The position numbers were made by a program, and so were the translations under genes. From Apium graveolens (taxonomy: Eukaryota > Streptophyta > Magnoliopsida > Apiales > Apiaceae), in the NCBI RefSeq assembly GCF_009905375.1, contig NC_133653.1, forward strand, positions 64,143,414-64,207,413: a DNA stretch of 64,000 bases, given 5' to 3'. Positions 13,224 through 58,140 of the stretch are shown piece after piece (position 1 is the first letter of the stretch; each line of letters opens with the position of its first letter). The notes under the pieces are model-generated. The model did not search any database and was not told where the DNA came from. It saw nothing but the letters and a program-made list of their open reading frames with translations.

Positions 13224-13540
13224 CCGACGGATGATTCAATATAGTCCCGACGGATGACTAATTGATATTCATCGGGTGAGTAGCTTATGTAATAATTAGT
13301 CATGTAGCACATTTCTACAAACATCTTTGTGTAGATTCTGTAGTAGCTTATGAGTCATGTAGACTGCTAGTAGATGTGCAGAATAGGTTGATTAAATGTA
13401 AATATAAGATGTCTTGTAATTCTGCACAAATGAAATGGAGTCAAGTGATAAATGGCTACCTGACGGATGATTAACAAAGCTACCCGACGAATGATCAACA
13501 AGACAACCCGATGGATGACAAGCATGTACCCGACGGATAA
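13224..13540 (+). repeat. CGACGGATGA motif cluster in A 5' LTR (U3)
   Basis: Copies or one-base variants of CCCGACGGATGA occur at 13224, 13246, 13459 (CCTGACGGATGA), 13483 (CCCGACGAATGA), 13507 (CCCGATGGATGA) and 13529 (CCCGACGGATAA), with an inverted variant near 13266-13276. Several are spaced 22-24 bp apart. The cluster is about 230-550 bp upstream of the TATA box, so it lies in U3. In the RNA it would be in the 3' untranslated region. Confidence 0.9.
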
Positions 13541-13768
13541 TCAATTCAAACATCTGTTGATAGTGACAACATAGTCACATGCGTTGGGTGTTTGCAAAAG
13601 GAATGTGGAAGCCTGTTTAACAGGAAATGAAGAACAAATAAGCATTACCATTTCTATGCAAGTTAAGAAGGTTTTCAAAGATGCTGGAATAGAGTAGTGA
13701 AGCAACATAGAGTTTGACTTGATAGTTTTGTTTTATTATCCTGTCTTATTGCCATGTAAACTTGGTGG

Positions 13769-13776
13769 TATATAAA
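13769..13776 (+). promoter_or_regulatory. Probable TATA box of A LTR
   Basis: TATATAAA in the context GGTGGTATATAAACCAAG is kept in the 3' LTR (32938-32945). The corresponding B LTR site is GGTGATATAAACTAAGAG (53644-53661). Conservation between two diverged families supports a core promoter. The transcript would start about 30 bp downstream. Confidence 0.65.
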
Positions 13777-13926
13777 CCAAGTGTAGCTAGTAGAACAAAT
13801 AACTAAGCAAACACTTTTAGAAGAGAAATAGAAAAAGCTGTAACTGTTAAGAATTTCTCTGTAGTTTGTTTGTTCACTTGTAAAGCAACTATGAGACAAT
13901 TTATTCTTCACAGAGTTCTTAATTCG

Positions 13927-14180: not shown

Positions 14181-14226
14181 AAGCTCTTGAAGCACAAAGA
14201 GTTTAAAGATCAAAACAAACAGCAAG

Positions 14227-16606
14227 ATGAACAAGAAGGATGTTGGAGTCAAGATTCCTTTTATGGACAAAGATAATTACCAACACTAGAAGGTAAAGAT
14301 GCACATTCATTTACTTTCTCAAGATGAGGCCTATGTGGATTGCATAGAGAGAGGTCCTCATGTACCAATAAGAGCTGCAACTAGAAATGAGCCATCAGTT
14401 CCCAAGCCAAGGCATGAATAGTCAGATCCTGATATTGAACAAGTCAGCAAAGAAAAGAAGGCCATGAATATTCTGTTCAATGGAGTTGATGGTAAAATGT
14501 TTGATAACATCATTAACTGGAAGACAGCCAAGGAAGTTTGGGATACCATTCAAATAATCTGTGATGGCACTGAACAAGTTAGAGAAAACAAGATGCAATT
14601 ACTAATTCAGCAATATGAGCATTTCCATTGTGAAGAAGGAGAAACTCTCACTGATATCTTTAGTAGATTTCAAAAGCTATTAAATGCTCTGAAGTTGCAT
14701 GGAAGAGTCTACCAAACCAAAGATTCTAACCTCAAATTCCCGAGATCCCTTCCAAAAGAATGGAAACCACTGACAGTCTCCTTGAGAAATTCATAAGAAT
14801 ACAAGGAGTTTAAACTAGAGAGACTGTATGGCATTATAAAGACTTATGAGCTTGAAATAGAGCAAGATGAAAGAATGGAGAAAGGGAGGAAGAAAGGAGG
14901 GTCCATTGCACTGGTTGCTGAGTTAGAGAAAGAGAATGAGATGAAGATAAAAGTTGTTGAGTCTACTTCAAAGGTTTGGGAAAACAAGGGCAAGGGGCTG
15001 GTAGCAGAAAATGAAGATTCTTTGAGCCAAGATGATATGGATGATATTGATGAACATCTTGTATTTCTTTCCAGAAGATTTTCCAATCTCAAGTTCAATA
15101 AGAACTTTGGAGCAGCTAAGCTAAATAGAAACATGGTGAATAAATCAAAATTCAAGTATTTCAAATGTGGCTTGGCAAGGCACTTTTCCAGTGAGTGTAG
15201 AAAGTCAGATTCCAGCAAGAAGAAGTTTGAGCCTGTGGATTATAAACAGAAGTATTTTGAGCTGCTCAAACAAAAGGAAATGGCTTTTATTACACAAGAA
15301 AATGACTGGGCAGCAGATGGTCTGGATGAGGATGAAGATGTCAGTTATGTCAATCTAGCCCTAATGGCCAAGTCTGATGAAACAGAGACAAGTTCTTTAA
15401 GCAATCAGGAAATCACCACTAATCTTGCACAATTATCTAAATCTGAGTGTAATGATGTAATTAATGACATGTCCACAGAATTATATCATTTGCGTGTTAC
15501 ACTTAAGTCCCTCGCTAAGGAAAATGCTAAAATCAAAGAAAACAATTTTTTTTAAGTGAGAGGAATAATGTGCTAGAGTCTCAGTTTATTGAATTTGAAA
15601 AATTGAGAATAAAATGTAAGATTGCTAAGGAGGAATTAACTGAGTCCTTGAAGAAAGAACAGATTTTGAAGAAGCGGCTTGAACGAGAGCATGAGGTGAT
15701 TAAGGCATGGAAATCATCTAGAGATGTCCATGCTCAAATCACCAAAGTTTAAGGAATTGAGTCCTTCTGTGATGCAGCCTGGAAAAAGAGTAAAGAGAAT
15801 CTGGAATCCAATTTAGTTGAAGGATTTTTAACAGATGTAGACTCGACGGATGATGAGAGTCATCCGTCGGATAATCAAATGGATTATCCGTCGGGTGACA
15901 TAAATCCTCATCCGTCGGCTGTGAGCAAACCTGTGAGTAAAGCCAAACTTGCCAAGTTAAATAAAAAATATGGATCGGTTTCCAAAAACTTTATTTCAGG
16001 AGAAACAAGTTAAGTGAAGAAGGAGAAGAAAGTGAATGTTGGTCATCTGTCCATCAAGCAATTAAATGACAGATTAGAAAAGATTGAGGGTAAAAAGAGG
16101 GTAAAAAGAAAAATAATAGAAATGGGAAAGTAGGGATTAACAAACATAACAACTACACACCTGATAAATATGCTCCAAGAAAAATCTGTGTTAAGTGTGG
16201 TAGTGCTAATCATTTTTCTGTTAATTGCAAACTTTCCATGCCTACTCCCATATCTGTACCACCTTCTTTTCCCAATATGAGTGCTATGCCTTCTATGCCT
16301 ATGAATGCTATGTCTACACAGAATATGAATGCAAAATTTGCTAATATGCCATTTGCACCTAATCCTTATTATGCTGCATTTAGTATGCCTCAAATGCTAT
16401 TAAGCATGCCCTACTGGAATAATATGTTTGCAAATAGCATGCCATTTCTTGTTAATCAAAATATGCATGATAATTTTGTTTTAATAACTGGTTTCAAAGG
16501 TTCAACTCAGATGACTAAGGATAAATCTGATATCCCCAAGTTAAATGAGATAAAACCTAAGAAACAAAAGAAGAAAGCTAACAAGGCAGGACCCAAGGAA
16601 ACTTGG
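14227..16606 (+). pseudogene. A gag (copia nucleocapsid/capsid), broken
   Basis: Starts at ATG 14227 (MNKKDVGVKIPFMDKDNY). In one frame to 15555 it gives the capsid part, with LFNGVDGKMFDNII, CDGTEQVRENKMQLLIQQY and LPKEWKPLTVSLRNS. Three in-frame stops fall where Trp or Gln is expected (near 14290, 14420, 14794). A first zinc knuckle near 15160-15200 has lost its first Cys (YFKCGLARHFSSEC). A frameshift in a T run ends the frame at 15555, and 15570-15752 continues in another frame. The second knuckle, CVKCGSANHFSVNC, near 16188-16228, is intact. A Met/Asn/Pro-rich tail ends KETW at 16606. Gag would form the cytoplasmic particle that packages the RNA. Confidence 0.9.
15843..15918 (+). repeat. 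Motif cluster inside A gag
   Basis: TCGACGGATGA at 15843, TCATCCGTCGG at 15860, TTATCCGTCGGG at 15884 and TCATCCGTCGG at 15908 lie within coding sequence. Here CATCCGTCG reads His-Pro-Ser. The first two form a perfect 10-bp inverted repeat (15844-15853 with 15860-15869) with a 6-base loop. These are the complement of the LTR motif. Confidence 0.9.
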
Positions 16607-17837: not shown

Positions 17838-18340
17838 GTGAGAAAAGCATATAGAGTCTACAATCTAAGAACCAACATTGTTGTGGAATCAATACATGTA
17901 GTGATTGATAATAAAAAGATTGAAGGACTGCAAGATGGATATTTTTATGAGAGCCTCAAATTTAACAATGTGGAGATGGTTAGTGATGACAGTGATGATG
18001 AAAGTGATCAAAAAACTACAACTAAGGATAATGCAGAAAAATCTACAACTAATGAAGCTAATAACTCATCATCCATCGAGTTACAAAATGCTTCATCCGT
18101 CGGGAGACAATCTGCATCATCCATCGAGAAAAAATCAGCCTCATCCGTTGGAACTCAAAGTGCTTCATCCGTCGGGTCATTGAGAGAAGCTGAAAGTCAA
18201 GGTAGATCACTCACAGAAAGTTCCCCTCTCTCATATCAAAGACTCACTAACTCAGGGGGAGTTTCTCATAATCAAAACTCAGTCACACATCAAGATAACA
18301 ATGAGGCATCTTCATCTAGAGTAAATCTAACATAACAGAG
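17838..18340 (+). pseudogene. A integrase-RT linker with 8-residue repeats
   Basis: The 165-residue frame 17838-18335 starts with the end of the integrase (AYRVYNLRTNIVVESIHV). It becomes a low-complexity acidic and Ser-rich linker with the repeat ASSVGxQS five times, then SLREAESQGRS. A stop at 18333 precedes the RT region. The linker is poorly constrained in copia elements and probably unstructured. Its codons TCA TCC GTC GGG are the complement of the LTR motif in a different frame from gag. Confidence 0.85.
18069..18176 (+). repeat. Five 24-bp tandem units in A pol linker
   Basis: Motif copies start at 18069, 18093, 18117, 18141 and 18165, exactly 24 bp apart: TCATCCATCGAG, TCATCCGTCGGG, TCATCCATCGAG, TCATCCGTTGGA, TCATCCGTCGGG. 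Each unit codes for eight residues. B has the same 24-bp spacing at 57946-58029. Confidence 0.95.
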
Positions 18341-19979: not shown

Positions 19980-20510
19980 ATTATTTCAGATATTTTTGCA
20001 AGTTGTAATGCAGCCAGAAATTTAATTGATTTTTTCAGTTTTGGATGAAATTTTGGCTAAGTCAAAATTTACATCCCGACGGATGATCATTATCCATCGA
20101 GTTTGATCATCCGTCGGAATACAATTTGTTAATAAAATCAATTATTTTTCTGGAATAATTTATGACTCGACGGATAACTGATTTATCCTCATCCGTCGAA
20201 TTGTCTCAATCCTAGCCGTTAATTCTCTGAACATTATCCATCGAGTATACTTAGAGTTTGTAAGCATAACACGACGGATAAGTGATGGAATTTTTACAGT
20301 TTATTTTTAAACGGCTATTTTGGGAAATTTTTATTGGTCACTTTATTTTACTTTATTATTTTTGACAGTTATTTTCTGAGATAGTATAAAAGCAATTTCA
20401 CTTTTATTCATTTCTTTTATCATTCCCAAGATTCAATTGCTCTAAATTATTTCTTTCTCAAAAGCAATTACCCTCTATCTCTCTCTCTGTGCAATTTTTA
20501 CTCTCTAACA
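19980..20510 (+). promoter_or_regulatory. A spacer between pol and extra ORF: motif hairpins and promoter-like leader
   Basis: Holds seven motif copies. They are at 20075 (CCCGACGGATGA), 20090 (TTATCCATCGAG), 20107 (TCATCCGTCGGA), 20166 (CTCGACGGATAA), 20189 (TCATCCGTCGAA), 20234 (TTATCCATCGAG) and 20270 (CACGACGGATAA). A perfect 14-bp stem pairs 20076-20089 with 20104-20117. A TATA box TATAAAAG at 20385-20392 is followed by a pyrimidine-rich leader (CTCTCTCTCT near 20480) and the start context AACAATGGCA. This is the layout of a plant promoter and 5' leader, suggesting that the extra ORF has its own transcript. Confidence 0.6.
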
Positions 20511-20800: not shown

Positions 20801-20805
20801 AGGAT
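20801..20805 (+). other. T target-site duplication, left copy
   Basis: AGGAT here equals AGGAT at 28601-28605. The two flank the whole three-LTR T structure, so T integrated, or was resolved, as one unit. Confidence 0.95.
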
Positions 20806-22241
20806 TATTAGGGCGAAAACAAGCGCTAATATTCACGTAAGTATATGCGTTCACAAGTAGTATAAGATATAAATCAGATTCGTTCCCACAGAGACTGGTT
20901 TAGGTTAAGTTCAATTTATGCACCTATGCAATAATTTATGGTTATCGCTCAATTCTAAGACAAATAACAAATTGGGTTTTGATTAAACTAAGAGATTAAA
21001 CTAAAAATTATAACTAAGAAAACAAGAATGGTTGAATTAATATATATGACAAACATGGGATTCTAACTACATTAAATACTTCATTCAATAGCCTTATTGT
21101 TCTTAACCTTAGCATGTAATGGTGATGACACTAATCCGATAACACAAAACTAGTAAACGCCAACTTTTGTTGTACGAATACCCTACTACCAAGCATCCAC
21201 AAAAGAGATAGAAGTTGAATAGACACCAATTATGTTTAGTCCTTATATGTCTATAAAAATTCAAAACATAACGGTTTAATACGCAAGTTATCTATCGTGA
21301 TTACATAGGGCAAGTAAGATGGTTAAAATTACCTATGAATCATGCATAATAAATACATGAACCTTTGCTAGCATGGCAAGTTCTAAACCTCTATATTCAC
21401 TGTCGCTTCAATAGATATTAACACGCTATCTTATATGTTAGCTATGCACATAAGACGAATAAACACAGCCAATACTAGGATATCATACAATCACCACACA
21501 CTAAGATATCGAAACAAATTAATTATTAAAATCCATAAGTAAATCCGCTAGAATCCCATGATAACGATTAGCCCATAATAAAACTCATCGTCACCATGGG
21601 TTCATATGAAAGCATGATAATAACACAACGATATAAGATGAAAAATACTTAATAAATAATGAAGTACGTCACAAGAGTATTAAGGTTCAAAGCATAAAGA
21701 AAACTAGCATCCACTGTTACAATGAATTAAAAGAATCACAAGATAAATGTGTGTTTCCTCTTCTTCGTTGTTGCGTGCTAAAACGGTCTTCTCAATCTTC
21801 TTGCCCTTGCTCTTGATGAAGAAAACGTCTTCCCATAAGGTTTATATAATAGCCCAAGAGAACCAGCGCCAACAGAAGCCTAATTGTACTTAAATTAATA
21901 AAATCCAGAATCTGAAATTCCGCACGCACGCGGTCGCCTGCTGTCTCCACACGGCCGCTTGCTGACACGCGGTCGCCTTCTCCTGGCGCGCGGTCGCGTG
22001 CCAGCCTTCTGGAAAGTACTTTATTTTGCTTATGTTTTTGCTGATTTCTTCGCTCATCACCCCTAGACTGATTCCAAGCACTTCCTTAAGCTTTATTTGA
22101 TAAAAACCACCTATCTAAGCAAGTTATACCCTGAAATGCAAAAACACTAGAAAACGCGTCAAAATACCAACAACTTGAGTCCCAAACACCAATTTAAGCT
22201 TGTAATAAAGCATTCCAAGTGGATATAAAATCCACTTATCA
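20806..22241 (-). repeat. T LTR 1 (3' LTR in element orientation)
   Basis: On the minus strand it starts TGATAAGTGG and ends at 20806, where TATTAG replaces the TGTTAG (minus CTAACA) seen at the other full LTR. It contains a GC-rich repeat block at 21921-22007 in otherwise AT-rich DNA. The 63-codon frame inside (21890-22081 minus) is repeated in LTR 2 and is not a credible gene. Confidence 0.92.
21921..22007. repeat. GC-rich CGCGGTCGC repeat block in T LTR
   Basis: CGCGGTCGC occurs at 21929, 21968 and 21989, with a variant CACGGCCGC at 21950, at 18-21 bp spacing. The same block is in LTR 2 (about 27401-27487) and LTR 3 (about 28280-28367). It is a sharp CpG-rich island in an AT-rich LTR, and GTCGC/GCGAC pairs could fold. 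Confidence 0.85.
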
Positions 22242-26284: not shown

Positions 26285-26289
26285 AAACT

Positions 26290-28109: not shown

Positions 28110-28600
28110 ATGCTTCCCCTTCTTCGTTGTTGCGTGCTAAACCGGTCTTCTCAATCTTCTTGCCCTTGCTCTTGATGAAGAAAACGTCTTCCCATAAGGT
28201 TTATATAATAGCCCAAGAGAACCAGCGCCAACAGAAGCCCAATTGTACTTGAATTAATAAAATCCAGATTCTGAAATTCCGCACGCACGCGGTCGCCTGC
28301 TGTCTCCACGCGGCCGCTTGCTGGCACGCGGTCGCCTGCTCCTGGCGTGCGGTCGCGTGCTACCCTTCTGGAAAATACTTTATTTTGCTTCTGTTTTTGC
28401 TGATTTCTTCGCTCATCACCCCTAGACTGATTCCAAGCACTTCCTTAAGCTTTATTTGATGAAAACCACCTATCTAAGCAAGTTATACCCTGAAATGCAA
28501 AAACACTAGAAAACGCGTCAAAATACCAACAACTTGAGTCCAAAACACCAAGTTAAGCTTGTAATAAAGTGTCCCAAGTGGATACAAAATTCACTTATCA
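28110..28600 (-). repeat. T LTR 3, truncated to its first 490 bp
   Basis: Aligns with 21752-22241. In element orientation this is the 5' end of an LTR (TGATAAGTG start) with the rest missing. It is more diverged from LTRs 1 and 2 than they are from each other, for example in the GC-rich block. It ends CACTTATCA next to the right AGGAT target copy. Confidence 0.9.
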
Positions 28601-28605
28601 AGGAT
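28601..28605 (+). other. T target-site duplication, right copy
   Basis: AGGAT, identical to 20801-20805. The extra ORF of A resumes here in frame with its left part (AGG ATT CTT). Confidence 0.95.
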
Positions 28606-29885
28606 TCTTGATAATACTGTCACTACTCCACACACAGACACTGATATTGTTAACATGTTAAACTCCATGGGTTATGCACTCACCAGCTCTAAATTAAGTG
28701 AAATTAGGAAATTGGTCTTAGGAAAGAATGGAGTTACTTGTGTGATGTAGTTACTAAAGTATTTTCTGTTAAAATTAGCAATTTTGATTCTGTCAATATC
28801 TACATGCTCAACATGCTTTACATGCTAGTAACTGATAAATACTTCAATTTTAGTGATCTAGTCTTGTTTGGGTTGGGGTTTAAGTTAGGGGAGCTTAATA
28901 AGAGGGGTAAGAGTGTGTATTATGCTAGATTTTTCATGATGCTTGCTAACCACCTCTCTGAGGACATTGTGATTGAGAACCCAACCAACAAGTTAAATTG
29001 TTGGGTTCAAGAAAGAAGAAGTATTGCAGATCTCAATAGAGCAGATCACCAAAAAGGGGTGCCACTCTTTTACTTTCCAGTAATGGAGGCACCTCAGGTA
29101 AGTGAGGTAATTTCAACTGTCTCTACTCTTCCAACCTCAAACATTTATTTGCCTTCTAGTGTAGCAGTGGCATATGTGTTAATGACAAGACAGATGCCTA
29201 CCCAAGCTACCAAAACCAAAGTTTTAAAAACAAAGACAAAGAAAGCCCCCTCTGATTTCTTTCAAAAGAGATCAGTTGTAAAATCCACCAAACCTAAAGA
29301 GGGGAGTGTGAAGGTGGGTAAGAAAGGTGAGGGACAGGGTGAAAATCAAAGAAGCCCTAAGAATAAGGATGGTGAGCATAGTGTACCCAAACCAAGCAAC
29401 ACCACATTTTCCCAACAAACTGTGGTTGTTAATAAGGACAAAAACTCAATTCTAGTTTCATCCTCCCAAAATGATGTAACTATTGAAACAAGCCCTCAAC
29501 CAGGAGCACAGAACAAAAGGGGTAGGGGCACAAGTTCAGCAAAAACTTACACAAGAAAGAAGAAAACTAAAACCCTTGGGGATGCACAGGGTACACACAT
29601 AGTGAAAACTGGAGCTAAAGACCCAGTCACTGCACCATCTCAAAGTCAAATTGATGTGGCTCCAACAAATGTGGAGTCATAGCCAAAATCTGTACAAATT
29701 GAAACACCTCAAACACCAAATTCTCCCACACACTTTTTGGATATTGACATGATTCAAACATCTCAACCATATTCTCCATCTTTAACTCTGGTGGAGAAGC
29801 GAAAAATCCATGCAAGTGAGCATCATCTTCTAGATGATTTGTTGGCTCACTTGCCATTTCAGAAGAATTCTTTGGAGGTGAGGAT
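28606..29885 (+). pseudogene. A extra ORF, middle part
   Basis: Continues from 20805 with DNTVTTPHTDTDIVNMLNS and YALTSSKLSEIRKLVLG. A frameshift near 28730 leads into the 314-codon frame 28738-29682, with LCDVVTKVFSVKISNFDSVN, DKYFNFSDLVLFGLGFKLG, KSVYYARFFMMLANHLSED and CWVQERRSIADLNRADH. A basic, Lys/Ser/Thr-rich tail follows (KTYTRKKKTKTLGDAQGTH), which could act as a nuclear targeting or nucleic-acid-binding segment. After a TAG at 29680 the frame continues to about 29885 (LDDLLAHLPFQKNS) before breaking. No known fold was recognised. Confidence 0.7.
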
Positions 29886-32084
29886 GGAGATAGTGAAGAA
29901 GAGCCATTGGATATAGGGGAGAAGCAGGCCCTAGTTCCAGATCACGCATGCCATCATGGGCCTTCTCCAAGAAATGTGATGATCACTATTTCAAGACCAC
30001 ACTCATTCAACTTATCAGCCAATTAACACAGTCTGCACTTCAATCAACCACAAATTCTAGCACCAAGAAGCTTCTGGAAGCACATCTTGCTTCTCTCCAA
30101 CTACAGTAAATTTCAGACTACCGACAAAGTCAAAATGTCTCCCTCGTCAAAAATGAAGTTGATCAACTTAAGAAAGACATCTTTGACAAGTTGGAAGCTA
30201 GACTTCCAGAGACAACAATGATAGACATCAAAAGATAGCTCAATAAAAAACTCTGATCTTGCAACCAAGGTGGATTCCTTGGACAAAAGAATGGTTGCTA
30301 TGGAAGCTTCTCTTATAGCAATCCATTTACACCAAGCTCAACAAACAGACTTGCTTCAGAAACTGGTGAATGCACAGACCTCCTCCTCTACTCAACTTGT
30401 TGATAACAAAAAGGGGGAGAAAGAAAGTTCTAGGAGTGAGGGGGAGCAAAAAGTTCTTAGCATTCAAGTGAGTAAAGCAATTGTGCCAACAATTGCTTTC
30501 ACAAAGCCACCAGCTAAAGATAGCATTGATCTGATAAATGAAGCAACAGCCACTTTGAGAGCAGCTGAGAAGAAGCAGTTTAGTCCAATCAACTGGGAGA
30601 AAATTGATGAGGATTTTCAAAAGAAATTTGGTCTAGAAATGAAGCCAGAAAAATCAGTCATTCATCACTCTCAAGTAAGGAAAATTTATGTGAATGATAT
30701 GAGCATGAACTATCTGGAGAGAGGCCAGACATCCTGCATCAAATCCCCAAAGGCAGATCTAATCATGAATCCAAAGGTGAACTACCCAAAGTCTTCACTC
30801 AAGAACCCTTCGGACACAGTGTATGAAACACCAAAGCCTGATGAGAAGAAGCTGTTGGCCAGGTCTATAGCATTCTACAAAGATCCTACAGAATCAGCTC
30901 TAAAAAAGAGAATTGCCAAGGTTTTCAGAAATGGTAAGGAAATTTGTGTGGTGGCTGGACACCCTCAATTTGTTGAAACAAAAAGGGAAGAAAATGCATG
31001 ATTGAAGCCAGAAAAGAAGCAAGTTGCTCTAGATGCTAAAAAGCTCAAATAAAAGAAGGAGCAAGCTGCTATCTTGGCCAAGTTGCAAGCTGTGAAACCC
31101 ACACAACAAATTCCTGAACAACCATCTGAAACCACTGAATCTAAAGATCAGAAAATGCAAGAAACACCTCAAAAGAAAAGAAAATTCAGATACAAGCTTC
31201 ATTCTAAGAGAAAATTGGAGTTCAGTGATGAGGAGATGAAAGACTACTTTCCCAAAGAGTCTACTTCTACAATAACTCAAACATCCATGCCCTCTATGGC
31301 ACATGAAGAATTCAAGATAGATCCATCCAAGAATTTCCATGGTGAACCTATCATTCCAAAGGATGAGCCAATAGACTGGGATAGTCTACCAATTCCTTGA
31401 CTCAATCTACCTCATTTAATGAAGCCAAAGAAAACAAAGACCGGAGCAGTCAAGAAAGTGAAGCCCTCGACTCTCAGATCCAAGTCCCTAACCAAAGCTC
31501 AAACCAAAGTCAACAAGGGAGATATCATGTACATATGTGACATCAAGGAATTCTCTAATCTAAACTTTTATCTAGATGAACTGGATGAAGTTAAAGGGAT
31601 TGATGCTTATAGGAATCTACCTGAAAGGCTAGTATTCAAATACAAGGCAGGAAAAGAGATGACATGGCCACTTCAAAGGATTCTTCAAGAGAGCGAATCT
31701 ATACTGATAAAAGTCTATTCATCTTTCAAGAAGAACTTTGGATTCAATGTGACAGCTAGAAGACTAGTTCTAAAGAAGATTGAAGAACTGATGAGTATTA
31801 GAGCCAAAGATGCACTTCCAAAGACTTTAACTATTCCTTATACAGGAAGTAGAGTGCATCTAAGGCCCTACTGGCTGATGGAATTGTTTGATGATAAGGG
31901 AGTTAGAAGATTCTTCAGACTAGAGGACCAGTTGAGCATCTCTAGCAATGAGACTCTACTGGAAATGCAAGAAATGCTAGATCTGTAAGAAAATGATGAA
32001 CTTGAGTTCCACAGACAACTCCAAAATCAGATAGAAGAAAACAACAGGAAGCTTGGAAAGAAATCTAGACCATCAAGGAAATAA
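29886..32084 (+). pseudogene. A extra ORF, C-terminal part
   Basis: A broken stretch (29886-30260) reads DHYFKTTLIQLISQLTQS in one frame. From 30270 one frame runs to 32084 with stops only at about 31001, 31049, 31398 and 31986. Early heptad-like sequence (DSLDKRMVAMEASLIAIHLH) suggests a coiled coil. PINWEKIDEDFQKKFGLE, SMNYLERGQTSCIKSPK, RSIAFYKDPTESALKKRI and KEICVVAGHPQFVE follow. After a Lys-rich section, IKEFSNLNFYLDELDEVKGI and RRFFRLEDQLSISSNE lead to the end. With the earlier parts it totals roughly 1,200-1,300 codons, far larger than a gag. The function is unknown. Confidence 0.7.
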
Positions 32085-32291: not shown

Positions 32292-33092
32292 TATTGGGAA
32301 TATGTTCTGAACTTGATGATTACATTAACAAAACACCTTAGTAGATTTAACATAGTGAAAAATATAGCACCCGACGGATGATCAATTATAGTCCCGACGG
32401 ATGATTCAATATAGTCCCGACGGATGACTAATTGATATCCATCGGGTGAGTAGCTTATGTAACAATAAGTCATGTAGCACATTTCTGCAAACATCTTTGT
32501 GTAGATTCTGTAGTAGCTTATGAGTCATGTAGACTGCTAGTAGATATGCAAAATAGGTTGATTAAATTTAAATATAAGATGTCTTGTAATTCTGCACAAA
32601 TAAAATGGATTAAAGTAATAAATGGCTACCCGACAGATGATTAACAAAGCTACCTAATGGATGATCAACAAGACAACCCGATGGATGACAACATGTACCC
32701 GACAGATGATCAATTCAAACATCTGTTGACGGTGACAACACAGTCACATGTGTTGGGTGTTTGCCAAAGGAATATGGAAGCCTGTTTTACAGGAAATGAA
32801 GAACAAAGAAGCATTACTATTTCCATGCAAGTTAAGAATGTTTTCAAAGAAGCTGGAATAGAGTAGTGAAGCAGCATGGAGTTTGACTTGATAGTTTTGT
32901 TTTATTATCCTGTCATATTGCTATGTAAACTTGGTGGTATATAAACCAAGTGTAGCTAGTAGAACAAATAACTAAGCAAACACTTTTAGAAGAGAAATAG
33001 AAAAAGTTGTAACTGTTAAGAATTTCTCTGTAGTTTGTTTGTTCACTTATAAAGCAGCTGTGAGACAATTTGTTCTTCACAGAGTTCTTAAT

Positions 33093-46802: not shown

Positions 46803-48206
46803 CTCTTAGTTTGCAATTACCACATTTACTACCTCACTCATAACCATTTTATCACATTGGAGCTTATCAACAAAAGATTCTGATATGAAAGATCTTGTTG
46901 CTCCCGAATCAATCAATACTTTAGCTTTGACATTATTGAGTAAAAGTGTACCTGCTATCACCTCAGAATTCTGAACAGCATCCTTCATCTTCAAATCAAA
47001 TGTCCTTGCTGTTGCTTGCGGGGTTGGTGCAGGTGGTGGAGGTAATGCCAATACCTCAACTAGCACACTCGCACTAGTATTTGCCATATTCATTAGAGCT
47101 TTTCCTGGTCCGGTTGCCTTGCACTCCCTAGCTATGTGTCCAGTCTTCCCACACTTGTAGCACGTAACTCCTGGCTTTGGCATCTTGCACTCATTCGCCA
47201 AATGTCCCTTATGATTGCACCTATTACAGGTCATGCTCAGCTTATTGCATACTCCGGGGTGCCTTCTTCCACGGTGCTTGCATTCCGGTCTCTGGAACCT
47301 GTTTTCTCCAACTTGCCCTTGGCTTGCCGGGTTGTTCCCTTTTGATTCTTGCCTTTTGTCCAAATTTCCCTTCTTTTGAAAATTTCCGCCCTTCTGGAAA
47401 CCAATCCTCTTTATATTCCGATCTTGCGAACTTCCAGCTTCAGACTTTTCTCCATAAAATGGAACCTTCCTCTTCTTGTTATCCCTCTCTTTCCTTGACT
47501 GCATCCCATTATTCTCAATCAGAGCAGCTTTCCGTACTACCCCCGCATAAGTTTCAAGCTCAAATATAGCCACCCTATCTCTGATCCAAGGCTCCAATCC
47601 TTGCTGGAATTTCTTTGCTTTTTCCTCCTCAGTGCTGGTATACTTTGTCACAAACCTTGACAACTCAGTGAACTTCTTCTCATACTCCAATACAGTCATG
47701 TTTCCTTGCTTCAACTCAAGAAATTTTAGCTTCATCTGATTCTGCATGTACTTAGGGTAATACTTTTCCAGAAATAACTTCTTAAATCTCTCCCAAGAAA
47801 CCTGCTGAATGACTTCCATAGCCTTTACTGATTCCCACCAATAGATGACTTCTCCCTTCAAGAAGTAAGTAGCATACGGCATCTTCTGATCATCTCCTAA
47901 CTGTACCAACTCAAAAGCCCTTTCCATCTCCTTGATCCATGTGTTAGCTATCACTGGATCAGTGGTATCATGAAATGCAGGTGGATTCACATTCTAAAAA
48001 GCCTTGAAGGTGACAATTTGTCTAGGTGGTACTGGTGGTTCAGGTGGTTGGTGTGGCTCACGGTTATCTTAGTTTTCAATTCATTGTTGAAGAGTTAGTT
48101 GTTGTTGAGCTATAGCATTGGTTTGCTGTTGCAAGGTTTCCAGTAGTCGAAGAATATTTGGGTCTGTGGTGGAGGTGGTTGTTGGGTTCTTCTTTTTGGG
48201 AGGCAT
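46803..48206 (-). pseudogene. C gag and protease (four stops)
   Basis: ATG at 48206 gives MPPKKKNPTTTSTTDPN, then a Gln-rich and Pro-rich N-terminus with stops at 48083, 48071 and 47996. From 47993 one open frame reads the capsid (WIKEMERAFELVQLGDDQKM, YFLKGEVIYWWESVKAMEV, LEKYYPKYMQNQMKLKFLEL), a basic Asn/Gly-rich linker, and two zinc knuckles CNRCNHKGHLANEC and CYKCGKTGHIAREC. The protease site VLIDSGATRSFI keeps the DSG triad. The stop at 46806 follows VVNVVIAN. The 47990 start some callers would use is GTG; upstream ATG 48206 is in the same frame and is the likely ancestral start. Confidence 0.92.
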
Positions 48207-49012: not shown

Positions 49013-52000
49013 TGTCACACCCCCAACTTAAACAGCAAAGTAAATATAGCTATTACAATATTTTAAAAGAAGAATACACAACCAAATCCAAGATCTTACA
49101 GTTTAGGGTTTGGAACAGCCCAACACTACCAACTATTACATCTGATTACGAATACCGAGTCCTCATACAACTATTATTACTTATTCTACCTGAGCTCGAA
49201 CATAAGCATCAGCATCACAGGTCTTACGGGCAGTCTGCTTGAATCTAACCATAGCTACTAGCTGTAATATCAGGGTAAAGCAAGAAGTGAGCCAAATGCT
49301 CAACAAGTGCTAACAGTACGACACAAAGCATAAATCGAGATATACTTTTAAGAATGTCAATGGAAAGACATAACTAATGATAACGAGAGATAAAACTATG
49401 TGAGATGGCATCTTTTTGCTTGTATCAAAACAATTTTAAAAATCATGTCTTAATCAAAATCGTTTTATGACGCTACGGATTATAGCCGGTGATCAGCCGC
49501 GAAGTAATACCGAACCTCGCTGGGTTCTAAAATATTAACGGGAATCCCTAGGCAACTTTTAAGCCTAATATAAGTGTGGAAAGGACTCGCGTCTCAGTCC
49601 AGATCCACTATTCAAGAAAACATTTATCCCCCTTTGGGACTGAAAACCCATATTTTATTTATTTCAAAAGCTGATGCCGAATTGTAACAAAATCTCTTTT
49701 AACAGTAAACATTTTTATTAAGGGAATATAGATCAACTCGAAACACGGGAAATATGGTACTAAATCTCAGGGCCATGATTCACAAATCTTTACTCTATTA
49801 GGGTAACCAAAAGGTTTTCATATGTCAGAACTTGGACAGGAAAATATGGTTAGACTAATGGATAATATGAAGGGGTAATGCCAAACTGGGCTTAAAGCAA
49901 TGGTTTCTCGTCAAGGTACAGGGGTTGGATCATTAAGAAGATAAGCTTCACGAATACTATGGGTGTTAAGGTAATGATCTCTAGCTCAGGATGTATATAT
50001 ATATCATAATTGTCAAGCTTTAGGATAGGAAAGAGGGTATCAATCAATGAGGAATCATGTTGGTAAGTTTTTAACTATCAGAGTTCAAGGTAAGGTTCTA
50101 TAGGGGTTCAAGTATCAGGATGAGATATCAATACTTAGGAATCATCATCATGTTAATCAAGAATGTTCAATCAAGTAATATAACAACTCTTTATTTTATC
50201 ATGGCATTTAATTATCATGAAAAGACTTTTGAACTACTTGCAATACATACTTGAGGGTTCATGGCATCTCTATGTAATTCAAAGATAAGCGAGAGATACG
50301 CTTGATTTAAACATATCAAAATGACTCAGGATAATTGCATCGATATATATGAACTGTTTATAGTAAATATGAAGGTCAAGTTGAATCACTTGCCTTGAGA
50401 TAGGCTGGTCTGGTCTGACTGGTAGAAGTAACTGGAGTTTCACTCGACCTTTATGGCAAGTTTTCCCTCGTCTCGAGATCCTACATAAATAATAATAATC
50501 CTCATTATAATATATTCTCACCAAATTAACCTATTTACAACTCGAAATTAAACACGGATGGCACTTAGGCCTATACGCACTTTAATTATATCCACCTTTA
50601 TATTTCAAATGCACACACATAGCCACATATTCACATATCATATATTAACACCAAATAACACCATATATACCATAATGCAACACTAGGCTTGGATGATCTC
50701 GACTCACCACTTAAGTCACTTGGTCGCTAAACTAGACAAAGTCTTCAAATTTTGGCTCCCTAACTCGATGTGCCTTTCCTAAATTATCCAAAACCTATTG
50801 ACCCTCACTTGTGCCTTTTGCTCTACTGACCTTATACTATTTTACAACTATGGTGATCGACCTAATACTCACTTCTAAGTGTTCTAAAACTATGTGATAA
50901 GTGATAGTGCTCACTGGTACAAACTTCAGAATGACAACTATAGTTTCTTGAGTGCATTAGGCACTCTTAAACTACAAGTTTTCCTTCAAAACTTTTACAC
51001 AAGACTCTTCTGACCTAAGGGCATCTCACAAGCTTGATGTGGCTCAAGGGCCTGGCTTGGGCCTTCTTGGGCCTAAGCTAAAAGTCCAAGGTTCCCCCTG
51101 TTTTTCTGGGCAGAAAATGCCCTGACTTGAATTAACTTGTGACACATGGTTCTAACTCATATCCTATGAACTATGGTTGTAAAAACTTCTCTGACACTCC
51201 CTATAACTAAGGCCCAATTGGGCCTAATGAGGGCCTACCCATGACATGGTGAATTCTCCCTATTTCTAAGTTGCAACAAAAATGTCCCCTGCTGGACAGA
51301 TTTTGTTATTCTACTTGTGCACCTAACCAAATGACATGCAAACCTCCAACCAACTCCTAAAACCTTTTATATACTCCCAATACTAACTTCTGGTAGCTTG
51401 GGCCTCAAAGTGCACACCAATGACATGGTTAAAACTCACTCTAAACTTCAGTGTACTAAACTGATTTTCTGCAGAAACTATAACTCTCATTTCTCCAAGG
51501 TCTTGACTTGACAAACTCAACTACCAACAACCCAATACTCAAACCAAGACTTAAACATGGTATTTTACTGAACTAACTCCCTTATTCTCAAAATAACCTT
51601 GGTGAGATCATCCTTACCTTAAGTACAATTATGGCAAAACAAGAGAATCTACACTTCACAAATCACAAATCTTCATGCTTTTGAAATAACAAGGTATGCA
51701 TTTTTATAAGAGATTATCACGAATTATTACCATGCAACAAGAAGCATAAATCAATATTAACACATTATACCTACTGAAATTAAGGCTCACTAACAAAATC
51801 TTTCCAAATGATCAAAATCTTACAAGATTTTAAGAGAAATCCTCATGCATGCATGCCTTCGGGTTTTTCAAACCAAAACAACATATTTTCTACATATATT
51901 CCATCTTAAAATTGACATGCAAGCCTAGAATAAGGTATACCTAGATGATCACTTAGCATGCAAGGATTTTTATCAAATTTTCACCACAAAATTCAAGTCA

Positions 52001-53052
52001 TTATCACATAAACATGCAAGAATTGATCAAAACAACAAGAATGATTTCAAGGACCATTCATTCGGCTCCCATATGGTCATGGCCGAATGAAATGGATGGA
52101 AATGGCCATTAAATCATCAAGAATTTCTTCTCAAGACTTGGCATTTATTCATTCCTTGTAGTCCTCTAAAAAACAATCTTAAATCCATAAGAATCAAGAT
52201 TGTATTTTGAGTTTCACTAAAACCTTTATATGCAACCCTTAAACTTAAACTTTCTACTCAAAACTCTTTGAAATATATATGGACAACATGCAGGGAGCAA
52301 GATTACTTGAATATAAGATGGATGTTTGAGTGAAAGAATGGAGAAAAGAAAGGGGATGGGGGCTTCGGTTATGGTGATTACCGAGAGGGAGGAAAAACCG
52401 AGAGGTGAGGGAGGAGGGAGGGAGGAGAGAGTGAGGGTGGAGTGTGGAGTGGGGTGAATGATCACAACACTTTGTACTTTGGGTTTTTATGATTTTGACT
52501 GATTGAAATAAGTGAGTGGAAATGAGAATTGACAAGATTAACCTTCCCACATACTAAGACCATTTTGCATGCAAGGACAAAGGAGTAATTTGGTTAGCAA
52601 GATGAGAGTTAGTGGGGTTGTAATTGTCCTTTTCAACCCTTTAGTTGAATAGAAGAGAGTTTGCATGCAAGGTTATTCATGTAATTTGATAAATATGACA
52701 ACTAAAATTTATAATGATTTATTTTTATAAAATAAAATACAAGTTCAAAAATTATAAAATTTATACCATAAATTAACTTGGATTTTTAGAGACTTTATAA
52801 AATCATTTTCAAAATTTGTGAACAAAATACCTTTTAAAAGAAAATTTTTCCAAAGCTTAGAATATACCTTATAAATCAAAAATAAAGAAATTAAATAAAC
52901 TCTTGCTTTGAAAAATCATATATTACACAAAGCAAATTTATAATGCAGAAATTTTCACTCATACTAGCGTACAATCATTGAATATATTTTCATTTGACTT
53001 TAATATTATACCAAATCCACAAACAATATTACATAAAATGCCGGTCGTAACA
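49013..53052 (-). repeat. C right LTR (5' LTR in element orientation)
   Basis: Plus strand TGTCACACCCCCAACTT to GCCGGTCGTAACA, 4040 bp. It matches the left LTR with scattered substitutions and small indels, for example a shorter TA run near 49994. Confidence 0.95.
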
Positions 53053-54022
53053 GATAACCACATTATTTATCCATTAAAAGAGTAATTTATATGAATAAGT
53101 GTGTGGCACATTCCGTATACTAGAATAGCTGAGGGATTTGGAAGTTTTAGTTATTTTTAAGTCATGTTGACTACTAGAAAGATATACAAAATATGAGGGT
53201 TAATTATAAATATAAAATGCCTTGTAATTTGTATAACTGAAAGAGTATCAACTGCTATAAAAATAACTTCAACTACTAATCTACAAAGCTTCAACGGATG
53301 AGCTAGTAAAGTTTCAACGGATGAGCTAGTCAAGTTTCAACGGATGAGCAAGTCAGGTTTGAACACATAACAGATGAAGTTTCAACGGATAACTCCTATA
53401 AAACTTCAACGGATGATCAATAAAAATAGCAGCTGAAAGGGACTTGACAGTGACTTAACAGTCACATGGGTTGATTCTATACAAAAGGAATTAAAAGAAA
53501 ATGAAGCATTTTCATTTCCATGCAAAAGATGGACGTTCCAAGATGTCGTATCTAACTGGATTGCATTGGATAGATAAATGAAGAAACATGTGATTGAACC
53601 TAGCTGTTAGGTTTTATTCTTTATCTTATTTCACATGTATCTCGGTGATATAAACTAAGAGTAGTAAGTGTTTCATAAAAAGATTACAATTTTGATTTAG
53701 AACAACATAGCAAGAAAGTTGTATTCTTAGTCTCTACAGTTCTAAGTTTGTAAACACTTGTAGGTAGTTGTGTGCTATTAGCATCACATAGTAATCTTCT
53801 CAATATATATATATATGGTGGAAATATCAATCCACCAGAAAGTTTTTAAACACCTTTTTATTTACTTTGTGTTGTTGAATACGATTATTGTTTATCTGCA
53901 CTGAAGCATATTCAAGCACAATAATATATTTTTATAAGAAGTTTTTAAAGTTTCAAAAAGTAACCAGAATTTCATTCAACCCCCCTTCTGTAATTCTGTT
54001 GATAGATTGTTGGGGAATAACA
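53053..54022 (+). repeat. B 5' LTR, right part, with right GATAA target copy
   Basis: 53053-53057 is the second GATAA copy. The LTR continues to GGGGAATAACA at 54022. TATA box ATATAAA at 53648-53654 in a context shared with A. TA run near 53803. It ends with the TTCAACCCCCCTTCTGTAAT block also found in A. Confidence 0.9.
53290..53416 (+). repeat. CAACGGATGA motif cluster in B 5' LTR
   Basis: TTCAACGGATGA at 53290, 53313, 53336 (23-bp spacing) and 53405, with TTCAACGGATAA at 53381. A further copy, CTCAACGGATAA, is the C target at 39503-39514. Position relative to the TATA box is the same as the CGACGGATGA cluster in A. Confidence 0.93.
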
Positions 54023-54082: not shown

Positions 54083-56472
54083 ATGAGCAGAAAGGATATT
54101 GGAGTAAAGATCCCACTTCTAGATAAAGACAACTTTCATCACTGGAAACTGAAGATGCACCTTCAACTACTCTCTCAAGATGAAATATATGTTGACTTCA
54201 TAGAGAAAGGACCTCATATTCCTCGCAGGACTGCAACAGATGTTGAAGAAGCTATTGGAAATGGGCAAACAGTCCCAAAAGCCTAGGTCAGAATGGACAG
54301 ATGAAGACATTGAGCAAGTTCATAAAGACAAGAAGGCCATGAATATTCTGTTCAACGGTCTTGATGGAGATATATTTGACAATGTCATTAACTTCAATAA
54401 TGCTAAGGAAAATTGGGATCAAATTCAAGTGTTATGTGATGGAACTGAGCAAGTCAGAGAAAACACGATGCAGCTTCTCATACAGCAGTACGAATACTTC
54501 CACTTTAAGGAAGGTGAATCTTTGAATGATACTTTTAGTAGATTTCAAAAATTATTAAATGGCTTAAAGCTGTATGGAAGGATCTACTAGACTAAAGATT
54601 CTAATCTGAAATTCCTGAGGTCTCTACCAAAAGAATGGAAGCCAATGACAGTCTCTCTTAGAAATTCTCAAAAGTATAAAGACATTACTCTAGAGAGACT
54701 GTATGGTATCTTAAAAAACTATGAGCTCAAAATGGAGCAGGATGAGTAGTTAGAGAAAGGAATAAAAAAGGGTGGAACTGTTGTATTAGTAGCTAAACAA
54801 GAGAGGAAAAGAGGTTAAGGTTGAAGCTGTTTAATCTGCACCAAACACAAGTGTTTGTGAAGTCAAGGGCAAAAGTTTAGTGGCTGAAGATGAGTACTGC
54901 ACAAGCCAGGATGAAATGGATGATATTGATAAGCATCTGGCCTTTTTGTAAAAAAGGTTTGCAAAACTCAAATTCAAGAGAAACTTTGGAGCTGCAAATT
55001 CCAACAGAAACATGGCTGATAAAGCTAAATTCAAATGTTTCAAATGTGAGATGAATGGTCACTTTGTCAATGAGTGCAGGATGCCTAGATCAGAATAGAG
55101 AAAGTTTGAGCCTGTGGATTATAAGAAGATATACTTTAAATTTCTCAAACAAAAGGAAAAGGCTTTGATTACTCAACAAAGTGGCTGAGCAGCTGATGGT
55201 GAGGATGCAGATAAAGACATGAATTCTGTTAACCTAGCCCTAAGTCAGATGAGATAAAATTCAGTTCATCAAGCAATCATGTAATCACTATAAATCTAGC
55301 ACACCTTTCTAAAGATGAATGCAATGATGCTATAAATGACATGTCTACTGAATTGTATCACTTATGTGCCACACTAAAATCACTCACTAAAGAAAACAAT
55401 AGATTTAAAGAGAATATTGTGTTTTTGAGTGATATAAATGTTGTGTTAGAAACTCAATTTATTGAATTTGAGAAATTGAAAATAGAGTGTAAGATTGCCA
55501 AGGATGAATTAACTGAATCTTTAAAGAAAGAAGAGATTTTGAGAAAGCAGTTTGAACGTGAGCAAGAAGCGATCAAGGCCTGGAAATCATCAAGAGATGT
55601 AAGTGCCCAAATTTCTAAGTTCAAGGAATTAAGTCTTTTCGTGAAGAAGCCTGGAAAAAGAAAAAGAAGAAACTGAACCAATAGTTGGTTGATGGTATTT
55701 CAACGAATTTTGAATCAATAGATGATGAAGCTTATCCATCGAAAGATAAAGCTCATCCATTGAAAGTTAGTTTTCATCCATTGAATGAGAAAAAGACCAT
55801 TAGCAAAGAAAAGCTAGCAAAGCTGAATGAGAAATATGGTTCAGTTACAAAGAACTTTGTTCAAGGAGAATCAAGCAAAGCCAAAGATACAATCGGAGTG
55901 AATGCGGGCCATCTGTCAATAAAGCAGTTGAGTGACAGATTGGAGAAGATTGAGGTCAAGGCAGATTCTAAAAGGAAAAAAATAGAAATGAGAAAGTAGG
56001 GATTAACAAACAAAATAACTACACACCTGATAAGTATGCACCTAGAAAGACATGTGTTAAGTGTGGTAGTGTTAATCATTTATCTATTAATTGCAAGTCT
56101 GTGATACATGCACCCATGTCTGCACCTCCTTCTTTTCCTAACATGCCCATATCACCAATGCATGATTTGTATGTTATGCCTGCACAAAATTTAAATGCAC
56201 AGTTTGCTAATATGCCATTTGCACACAATCCTTATTATGCTGCATATAATATGCCATAAATTTCGTTTAGCATGCCTTACTAGAATAACATGTTTGCACA
56301 ATCTATGCCATATCATGTTAATCAAAATGTGCTTGATAATTCTAAAATTGATCAAGGGATTCAAATTCAATTCTCTAAGAATAAGGTTAATTCTCAATCA
56401 CCTAAGTTTGATGGTGGAAAGCCTAAGAAACCTAAAAGAAAGGCTAATAAGGCAGGACCCAAGGAAATTTAG
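54083..56472 (+). pseudogene. B gag, broken
   Basis: ATG at 54083 (MSRKDIGVKIPLLDKDNF). A frameshift near 54270 leads to LFNGLDGDIFDNVINFNNAK and CDGTEQVRENTMQLLIQQYE, up to a stop at 54588. LPKEWKPMTVSLRNS follows, then a run of stops between 54750 and 54960. The first zinc knuckle CFKCEMNGHFVNEC (near 55038-55078) is intact, unlike in A. The coiled-coil-like 55341-55676 frame precedes a motif-bearing stretch (55698-55785). The second knuckle CVKCGSVNHLSINC lies near 56053-56095. The Met/Asn-rich tail ends KEI plus TAG at 56470, where A has Trp. Confidence 0.88.
55698..55785 (+). repeat. Motif copies inside B gag
   Basis: TTCAACGAATTT at 55699, TTATCCATCGAA at 55732, TCATCCATTGAA at 55753 and TCATCCATTGAA at 55774 (21-bp spacing). 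CATCCATTG reads His-Pro-Leu, the same phase as in A gag. The ATTGAA ending matches the B LTR type (TTCAAC..). Confidence 0.88.
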
Positions 56473-56510
56473 GTACCAAAATCAACTTGATTTGGTTTTG
56501 GTGTGTGTAG
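56473..56510 (+). other. B 38-base gag-pol junction segment (GT..AG)
   Basis: GTACCAAAATCAACTTGATT to GTGTGTGTAG, the same length and ends as 16607-16644 in A. Removing it would bring the gag frame and the pol GGA at 56511 into phase. The internal sequence differs by only a few bases from A. Confidence 0.5.
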
Positions 56511-57880
56511 GGAAATAGAAAGATTTTTTTGTATCTAGACAGTTGTTGCTCAAGTCACATGACTGGAGATTCTACCCTGCTCACTGAGTTTAAGGAAAGG
56601 GCTGGCCCAAGCATTACCTTTGGAGATGACAACAAAGGGTATACTATAAGATATGGCTTATTTCAAAAGAGAATGTCACTATTGAAGAAGTTGCTCTAGT
56701 TGATGGACTCAAACACAATATTTTGAGTGTCAGTCAGCTATGTGATAAAGGCAACTCTGTTACTTTGACAACTGAAGCCTGTGTTGTTACTTGCAAGAAA
56801 AACAACAAAGTGGTCCTTACTGGAGTAAGGAAATAAAATGTGTATCTAGCTGATTTCAACTCAACAAATGCAGATTCAATTACTTGTCTTTTCAGCAAAG
56901 AAAGTGAAGATAAAAGTTGGCTATGGCACAAGAAGCTATCTCAGTTGATCTTCAATACCATGAATGAATTGATCAAGAAAGACCTTTTTAGAGGAATTCC
57001 TCAAGTTGAGTTCTGAAAAGATGGACTGTGTGGGGCTTGTCAAAAAGGAAATCAAGTGAAAGCATCATTCAAAAGGAAGCTTGAATCAACAATTGATGAA
57101 CCTCTACAACTATTACACATGGATTTGTTTGGACCAGTTAATGTATTGTCAATCTCAAAGAAGAAGTATTGCCTAGTGATTGTGAATGATTTCTCAAAAT
57201 TCTCATGGACATATTTTCTTGGATCAAAAGATGAAGCTAGTGAAATCATTATTAATCATATAAGGCAAGTCAACAATCATCCCCATCTCAAAGTAAGAAG
57301 AATTAGGAGTAAAATGGAACTGAGTTCATGAATTCTACTATGAGGTTATTCTGCGAAGAAAATGGAATCATGCATGAGTTCTCAACTGTAAGGACACCGC
57401 AAAAAAGGAGTGGTTGAGAGAAAGAATAGATCATTAATTGAAGCAACTAGAACCGTGCTAGAAGAATCAAAGTTACCAACTTACTTCTGGGCTAAAACGG
57501 TCAACACTGCATGCTACACTCAAAATATCTCTTTGATTAATTAAGCAAAGTGCATGACTCCTAATCAATTGTTCAATAATAGAAAGCCAATATTGAACTT
57601 TCTCATATTTTTTTATGCAAGTGTTATATCCTAAGGAATCAAACTGATCAACATGGAAAGTTTGATGCCAAAGCTGATGAAGGTATCTTTGTTGGATATG
57701 ATGTTGGAAAAGCATATATAGTCTACAATCTAAGAACCAACATTGTTATGAAATCTGTACATGTTGTGTTTGATGATAAAAAGATTGAAGGACTGTAAGA
57801 TGAAGGTTTCTATAAAAGCCTCAAATTTGATAATATTGAGATATATTGTGATGATAGTAATGATGAAAATGATCTAGAAG
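56511..57880 (+). pseudogene. B protease and integrase, broken
   Basis: The protease site reads YLDSCCSSHMTGD near 56535: the Gly of DSG is replaced by Cys. LWHKKLSQ near 56921 has Gln where the second His of the zinc domain should be, and CGACQK is kept. The core has HMDLFGPVNVLSISKKKYC, but the second catalytic Asp is destroyed: A reads RSDNGTEF, and here a small deletion gives RSK followed by a frame change near 57308. VVERKN-like sequence follows near 57410. Several stops lie throughout. This integrase cannot be active. Confidence 0.87.
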
Positions 57881-58140
57881 AAATGACAAAAGAATACTCA
57901 AAGTTATCTTCAAATGAAGGAACAACAGTTGATACACAAGATACTGTATACGTTGAAAGGCAAAGTGCAATATCCGTTAAGAGACATAGTGCATCATCCA
58001 TTGAAAGGCAGAATTCAACATCAATTAAAAATAATTCTAGATCATTATTTGACATAAACCCATCTTCAAATGAAAGATCCGCAAACTCAGGGGGTGTCAT
58101 CTAGTCAACATTCAATTACACATCAATACACTAATGAGGC
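57881..58140 (+). pseudogene. B integrase-RT linker with repeats
   Basis: A Ser-rich, low-complexity linker reads VERQSAISVKRHSASSIERQ. It is the counterpart of the ASSVGxQS repeats in A, followed by NPSSNERSANSGGVI. Confidence 0.8.
57946..58029 (+). repeat. 24-bp tandem units in B pol linker
   Basis: Units start at 57946 (GTATACGTTGAA), 57970 (ATATCCGTTAAG), 57994 (TCATCCATTGAA) and 58018 (ACATCAATTAAA), exactly 24 bp apart. Period and phase are as in A, with the TTGAA ending of the B motif. Confidence 0.9.

Follow-up and report, generated by a model that had tools for sequence, protein, structure and literature searches.

A dispersed motif in the control regions and coding genes of related Apium graveolens Sireviruses, with a one-base switch between families

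The VANDALs are DNA transposons, and those of Arabidopsis carry motif arrays at several places per element. These arrays of VANC-binding motifs are tandem-like and mainly non-coding, their binder is element-encoded according to chromatin immunoprecipitation sequencing (ChIP-seq) and electrophoretic mobility shift assays (EMSA), and subfamilies differ by a single motif base (C-type and T-type), for which co-evolution of motif and binder was proposed (PMC5735166, in the sections available). For Sireviruses, the available sections of Bousios et al. 2010 (PMC2829016) describe short repeated motifs (RMs) that are element-specific and high-copy and are located both in the long terminal repeat (LTR) and in the spacer that precedes the env-like gene. 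Every element carries a version of its own, two elements have extra copies at the start of env, and the RMs are palindromes, with a CGG-CCG core in 12 of 13 elements and clusters that form CpG islands. In maize, palindromes in Sirevirus LTRs are small-RNA hotspots (Bousios et al. 2016, as cited in the excerpt of PMC5311732). Here we analyse two related Ty1/copia elements, A and B, in a 64,000-nucleotide stretch of the Apium graveolens genome (C7:64143414-64207413, hereafter the window, whose numbering is used throughout; the genome searched comprised 3.33 Gb). By most of the features given in the same sections of PMC2829016, A and B are Sireviruses. They share a motif of about 10 bp that recurs along the element with unshared flanks, in both orientations and in different reading frames, and whose core base was switched along a stepwise path. 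The copies are predicted sites, probably for one DNA-binding protein whose preference drifted.

Motif arrays in LTRs, gag, pol and spacers

The motif reads YCGAYGGATRA in A and TCAACGGATRA in B. Both elements carry it in the LTR, in the tail of gag and in the spacer between integrase and reverse transcriptase (RT), and A carries it additionally after pol; the family holds about twenty copies per element, spread over control regions and coding genes. The 5' LTR of A, which is left-truncated, has two copies near its left end followed by four that are 22-24 bp apart (13224..13540, plus). Four copies lie in the gag tail (15842..15919), the first LTR-oriented and the next three opposite and 24 bp apart, and five in the integrase-RT spacer (18069..18176, minus) at intervals of 24 bp, or 8 codons. 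Seven copies of mixed orientation occupy the non-coding post-pol spacer upstream of the env-like gene (20075..20281), and the 3' LTR (32370..32709, plus) has three near its left end and four further in. Element B has an LTR array of TTCAACGGATRA (53290..53416, plus), three gag-tail copies 21 bp apart (55732..55785, minus) and mostly decayed spacer copies 24 bp apart (57947..58030, minus). These positions and the motif itself had been given correctly in the initial annotation of the window. Its further statement that the LTR and internal copies of B match has to be qualified, as the internal TCATCCATTGAA is one base off the B LTR motif and one of the three B gag copies has CG, the other two CA.

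Genome-wide, exact CCGACGGATGA occurs 50,352 + 50,277 times (100,629) against 37 + 41 (78) for the reversed pattern, and exact TTCAACGGATGA 22,811 + 22,798 times (45,609) against 69 + 62 (131). Because these counts vastly exceed those of the reversed patterns, the motif is far above chance. The A-type word also surfaced unprompted in an unsupervised repeat count over A, B and 20 Sirevirus loci, taken in genome order with an integrase pattern that often misses B-type elements. Measured from a conserved integrase site, the motif zones lie at about −4450 to −4000 (LTR), −1830 to −1670 (gag), +430 to +545 (spacer) and +2400 to +2700 (post-pol); these positions are nearly constant across loci, with some displaced by insertions. 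About 12,500 places in the genome match the gag-pair pattern. In one B-type element, five copies lie inside the env-like coding frame itself (L041:1409-1527), in both orientations and starting at codon positions 1 and 2.

Plus and minus copies number 53 and 5 in the LTR, 11 and 34 in gag, 1 and 48 in the spacer, and 33 and 47 after pol. The proposal that internal copies are the complement of the LTR copies therefore describes the spacer and most of gag, although gag is not uniform, and fails for the mixed post-pol array. The first base of minus-oriented copies falls on codon position 1 in gag and on position 2 in the spacer, alike in A and B. Codon use follows the motif: SS[VI] tripeptides of the spacer are encoded with TCA-TCC in 27 of 30 cases, TCC making up 43 of 640 Ser codons in the protease-integrase part, and HPS-type tripeptides of gag use TCG in 24 of 35 cases and TTG in 9, TCG making up 8 of 640 Ser codons elsewhere; the frame counted was the one with most such tripeptides, and the copies are related by descent, so that the bias is strong and its trials are non-independent. 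The A/B difference exchanges TCG and TTG (Ser to Leu) in gag and is silent in the spacer (GTC to GTT). Repeats selected at the protein level, which we considered, are disfavoured by the differing gag and spacer frames together with a Ser-to-Leu change in one and a silent change in the other. We conclude that the motif is a nucleotide signal.

The zones have the motif in common and not its surroundings. In 1454 pairs of copies from different zones of one element, identity was 0.90 at position 0, 0.91 at position 1 and 0.69 at position 3; beyond −3 to +9 it ranged from 0.22 to 0.38. For A against B, the values were 0.09 at position 1, 0.19 at −2 and 0.22 at −3. Since the motif search held positions 2 and 4-7 constant and limited the choice of base at 0, 1, 3 and 8, it is the flanks and the within/between contrast at position 1 that carry weight.

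The one-base switch and its history

The base after the first C/T of the motif separates the two types, as the initial annotation had noticed for A and B. Of 160 A-type copies, 153 have G there, and 68 of 72 B-type copies have A. By zone, G was found in 34 of 37 LTR, 31 of 31 gag, 32 of 34 spacer and 56 of 58 post-pol copies of A-type loci, and A in 21 of 21, 13 of 14, 15 of 15 and 19 of 22 copies, respectively, of B-type loci. These 232 copies come from ten A-type loci (A, L013-L016, L018, L019, L021, L023 and L024) and five B-type loci (B, L030, L031, L033 and L034), 15 more zone copies with a dinucleotide other than CG, CA or TG having been left out before counting. Copies were present in the slice for the LTR in 9 of the 15 loci (six A-type, three B-type), for gag in 12, for the spacer in 14 and for the post-pol zone in 13. 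Also outside the table are L029 and L032, which have no integrase anchor, and L010, which was first counted as A-type and then dropped, its integrase belonging to another clade and its copies lying outside the zones. Stray internal CG copies occur in plain B elements, one each in B and L031. The neighbouring CCC-to-TTC change, said to go in step with the core base, tracks only loosely: at −2, cross-zone identity is 0.46 inside an element and drops to 0.19 when A is compared with B, and in L023 most LTR copies read CCC but gag reads TTC.

A survey of LTR against gag, based on the list of gag inverted-pair matches, took 27 of 50 loci, up to 8.67 Mb of C1; the two types agree wherever both are listed. 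Exact TTCAACGGATGA was present in the 5' LTR window of 12 of the 16 gag-CA loci, and the LTR arrays of three of the other four, which we inspected (L035, L039 and L040), are CA-type; the fourth is at C1:2857886. It was present in the 5' LTR window of none of the 11 gag-CG loci; CG-type LTR copies are listed for seven of these, an eighth (L023) has a CG LTR and three are without listed copies, the list of CG copies covering C1 to 3.8 Mb and 15 rows of the 24-bp-pair list, taken for LTR pairs, being used. One of the seven, at C1:5719206, has one CA and one CG copy in its LTR. One locus, C1:2835842, seemed at first to be a counter-example, having CA in gag but CG motifs some 3 kb upstream; it is a CA-type (B-type) Sirevirus inserted into an A-type LTR just beyond the motif array of that LTR (L035, C1:2832300-2833600). 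Among 100 listed gag pairs matched with both diagnostic dinucleotides free, 51 were CA/CA, 39 CG/CG and two CG/CA mixtures, and eight had a different dinucleotide on one side.

Integrase-region trees unite the A/B loci in a single clade (100/100), with A nested among B lineages; the last tree omits four long or doubtful rows (L013, L022, L028 and L030) and has a distant outgroup. Three intermediate loci diverge after the B grade and before A (supports 100/100, 98/98 and 100/99). A clade made up of B and the intermediate L049 is rejected by the approximately unbiased (AU) test (p 0.03, for a group named once an earlier tree had been seen). The first intermediate (L053-L055) has two CA copies in the LTR, CA/CG in gag, one CG and three CA in the spacer and no post-pol copy in the slice. 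The second (L048, L049 and L052) has six CA in the LTR, CG/CA in gag and two CG and one CA in the spacer, again with no post-pol copy in the slice. In the third (L056-L059) there are four CA and one TA in the LTR, three CA and one CG in gag, one CG and one CA in the spacer and five CA, one CG and one TG after pol. One copy each in the LTR slices of L048 and L056 is minus-oriented and lies some 200 bp before the main array. As the intermediates were picked for mixed-looking gag copies, they show existence, not frequency. Three other loci chosen in the same way comprise two plain B types (L042-L044, with no copy in L044, and L050-L051) and one A type (L045-L047) with one CA gag copy, some TG copies and no typical motif in its LTR slice.

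The trees point to one switch, from CA to CG, opposite to the usual decay of CpG, its direction resting on a distant outgroup. Replacement was site by site rather than in lock-step, with internal sites ahead of the LTR in the three intermediates. Neither of the outcomes that the initial annotation had named as refuting was seen in this sample: in plain A and B elements that have both LTR and internal copies the variants track each other, and most of the A/B-clade members sampled do carry internal copies. The three intermediates, in which LTR and internal copies differ, are a partial exception.

A candidate DNA-binding protein and its alternatives

Since the word is kept in coding and non-coding DNA, in various frames and both orientations, and was replaced site by site, a DNA-binding protein is the simplest common cause. 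One sequence-specific protein would bind all motif copies on double-stranded DNA, at sites in stretches that tolerate extra sequence: the LTR upstream region, the gag tail and the integrase-RT and post-pol spacers, to which one B family adds the middle part of its env-like gene. By gathering on the element DNA, it might aid transcription or resist silencing. In one lineage, its preferred base would have changed from A to G (TCAACGG to YCGACGG), probably by way of a binder accepting both bases, while sites were replaced one by one, internal ones first and LTR ones last. Such a binder is somewhat more likely to be encoded by the host, and its encoding by the element is a serious possibility of lesser weight. 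A more specific version is doubtful: here, a putative VANC-like, sequence-specific protein, element-encoded and perhaps the product of the env-like open reading frame (ORF), would read arrays along the whole element, coding DNA included, and the A clade would be a case of binder and some twenty sites shifting together, with intermediates in the same genome.

The initial annotation had offered three explanations, pairing within an RNA, gene-conversion-like homogenisation and an array of DNA-binding sites, of which the last fits best. Were the function at the RNA level, internal copies would pair with the 3' U3 copies or form hairpins in gag and the post-pol spacer, and the A/B changes would be compensatory. 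Spacer copies and most gag copies are indeed complementary to those of the LTR, the gag inverted pair stays matched through the switch in the listed pairs given above, and local folding is far better than that of shuffles for A gag (z −7.9) and A post-pol (z −5.6), but not for the LTR (32365-32440; z −2.3), the A spacer (z −0.2) or B gag (z −0.7). Single-base variants divide by orientation: plus copies have 14 transitions that a G-U-tolerant duplex allows, 6 that it disallows and 18 transversions, whereas the 61 variants of minus copies comprise 5 allowed transitions, 37 disallowed ones and 19 transversions. The commonest change is C-to-T at position 3, read in the motif's own orientation (32 of 99), far above the 6 cases of the mirror change, G-to-A at position 4, which the same decay at this second CpG would also give. 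Such a bias in the frame of the motif is easier to reconcile with a protein reading the double helix than with RNA pairing. Gag and the post-pol spacer contain copies of either orientation, and in the intermediates the CA copies of the LTR would be mismatched with CG copies inside. We consider RNA pairing with compensatory changes improbable; the gag hairpins may have a separate role.

We rate as just as improbable that the copies arose from one another, whether through gene conversion, template switching or tandem duplication, with no selection acting on the motif. Copies of one array do share spacing and some flank (same-zone identity 0.30-0.45), which makes duplication within arrays likely. 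Between zones, however, identity is down to background within about three bases of the core, and gag copies keep position-specific flanks across elements; flanks thus not being common to zones, conversion tracts across zones are disfavoured, as they are by CA and CG copies standing side by side in one array of the intermediates. That B is simply A after methyl-CpG deamination would suit the two CpGs of the A motif, the single one of B and the CpG-type variants common in both, and is nevertheless highly improbable: the tree roots A inside B, making the change one from CA to CG, the AU test speaks against uniting B with L049, and most B copies retain the second CpG (58 of 72 have C at position 3), whereas only 2 of 72 have TG at the first. 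It is unlikely that the motifs are ordinary enhancer repeats for a host transcription factor, placed in the LTR and ahead of env as has been proposed for Sirevirus RMs, and that the coding copies are incidental; as this idea overlaps the host-encoded form of a DNA-binding protein, the probabilities of the two do not sum to one. It is in line with the other sampled Sirevirus families, which bear their own motifs in LTR or post-pol zones, GGTATGACAA in L011 (4 LTR, 8 post-pol) and GACTTATCGA in L022 (9 and 9), a layout that is the RM pattern published in the available sections of PMC2829016. None of the own motifs of the Sireviruses sampled outside the A/B clade falls in the gag or spacer zones, and coding copies are therefore an A/B-clade feature in this sample. 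Against incidental coding copies stand their presence in most sampled A/B members, the motif-driven codons and the way in which they follow the base switch. AACGG, which we take to be the core of plant mitosis-specific activator (MSA)/Myb sites, lies within the B motif core and is absent from A-type motifs.

Several points weigh against a DNA-binding protein as the common cause. The binder is a candidate only, its binding being inferred from sequence. Array spacing varies between about 15 and 24 bp with no evident helical phasing. The C-to-T changes at position 3 are found in 26 minus and 6 plus copies, and a strand-blind reader predicts no such excess, which may be explained by inheritance of individual post-pol and spacer copies. 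A reader of DNA has no need of the strong local folding of A gag and post-pol. The tree holds one switch, and hence one independent case. For the env-like protein, an AlphaFold model of the Heracleum relative was useless, with a predicted local distance difference test score (pLDDT) of 30.

Sirevirus features, surroundings and described systems

The copia domains GAG-pre-integrase, rve and RVT_2 follow one another along A in the expected copia order (Pfam scan). An iMet-type primer binding site (PBS) is a Sirevirus trait; A has one at about 14169, and TGGTATCAGAGC, with 0-1 mismatch, lies ~3.4-3.5 kb before the integrase anchor in A, B, L015, L016, L018, L019, L021, L023, L033 and L034, the same search finding none in L013, L014, L024, L030 and L031. 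A polypurine tract about 10 bp before the 3' LTR, by the AGGGGGAG criterion, is present in both elements in which we describe it: in A, TGGGGGAG at 32282 stands just before the LTR start at about 32293, and in L041 AGGGGGAGAT is followed by TGTTAGG. Sireviruses can have several more identical tracts clustered near the 3' LTR. L041 has four AGGGGGAG tracts, the last of which joins the LTR start; the other three, at 1760, 2151 and 2642, lie within the env-like frame, 1.8-2.7 kb from the LTR. A has two further polypurine tracts, at 30412 and 30439.

Many Sireviruses, though not all, have an env-like gene. Between pol and the 3' LTR, A has a broken one in several ORF pieces (28568..31985, plus), which contain no motif copy at ≤1 mismatch to CCGACGGATGA; the four pieces scanned gave no Pfam match. 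The env-like frame is open, at 1032 amino acids, in the B-type element L034 and the abutting slice L041, and the copia frames of B itself stop near 58.6 kb, short of the env-like region. Relatives of the B-type env-like ORF, the counterpart of that of A, are mostly hypothetical proteins from Heracleum and Apium. Apium graveolens entries are among the best of them, P0017 being 91% identical over 36% of the env-like query.

The window holds further repeats. The 5' LTR of A starts inside its own motif array, adjoining the end of another LTR element (TGTTACA; 13200-13224), whose repeat copies lie at 1-about 3314 and about 9848-13223. In the spacer of A, between the post-pol array and the env-like gene, a repeat pair at 20805-22051 and 26289-27535, 5484 bp apart and with a third partial copy at 28111-28410, is probably a nested LTR element. 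Another two repeats, nearly identical and spaced about 9.5 kb (39515-42929 and 49013-52423), flank minus-strand ORFs at 43593-47993 that by eye resemble a Ty3-type gag-pol. At 1246-1418 and 61910-61966 there are tandem repeats with units of 55 bp and 21 bp, respectively.

The initial annotation knew of no described copia feature of this kind. RMs in the LTR and upstream of env are in fact published; copies in gag or pol and a tracked base switch are not mentioned in the available sections of PMC2829016. Our literature search, in which most papers were judged by title and the start of the abstract, gave nothing pointing to motif copies in coding regions, and the matches listed for the exact string CGACGGATGA all look unrelated by the same standard. 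Neither motif copies within the coding DNA of gag, pol and mid-env nor a resolved base switch turned up in the literature searched. Dispersed motifs of their own were seen in L011, L022, L020 and L026 (GGTATGACAA; GACTTATCGA; GAGTTCTCTA). As a lead from other species, at the protein level, SV(E/D/G) recurs every ~8 residues in the integrase-RT spacer of the polyproteins P0027, P0028 and P0029 (ENA contigs) and P0034 (Heracleum) and is absent from two Daucus polyproteins (P0031 and P0035).

Coding sequence rarely holds a dispersed recognition array, and here a 10-bp word does so in different frames and both orientations, in an element family that runs to thousands of copies. The stepwise A/B switch provides natural variants with which the factor reading the motif could be sought, and it prompts the question whether retrotransposons have self-recognition systems like those of VANDALs.

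Like RM boxes, the A/B-clade motif is present in at least eight copies across the LTR and post-pol zones of A, L016, L018, L019, L021, L033 and L034, env having been seen only for A and L034. Unlike RM boxes, the B motif TCAACGGATRA has no dyad, and in A the sequence CCG-A-CGG arises only when a C precedes the core, as it does in 21 of 37 LTR copies. The usual criterion for CpG islands includes a GC threshold, and the arrays, with GC of 0.36-0.43 and observed/expected CpG of 0.85-1.81, fall below it. They differ from RM boxes also in lying inside gag, the integrase-RT spacer and mid-env coding sequence. With the maize palindromes they share the character of short repeated structures in the regulatory region of Sirevirus LTRs, but those are described for LTRs, and the excerpt of PMC5311732 does not mention matching internal copies. 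Unlike VANDALs, as described in the available sections of PMC5735166, A and B are LTR retrotransposons with copies in coding DNA, and their binder is a prediction. Like VANC target arrays in those sections, the A/B-clade motif stands in several arrays per element and differs between families.

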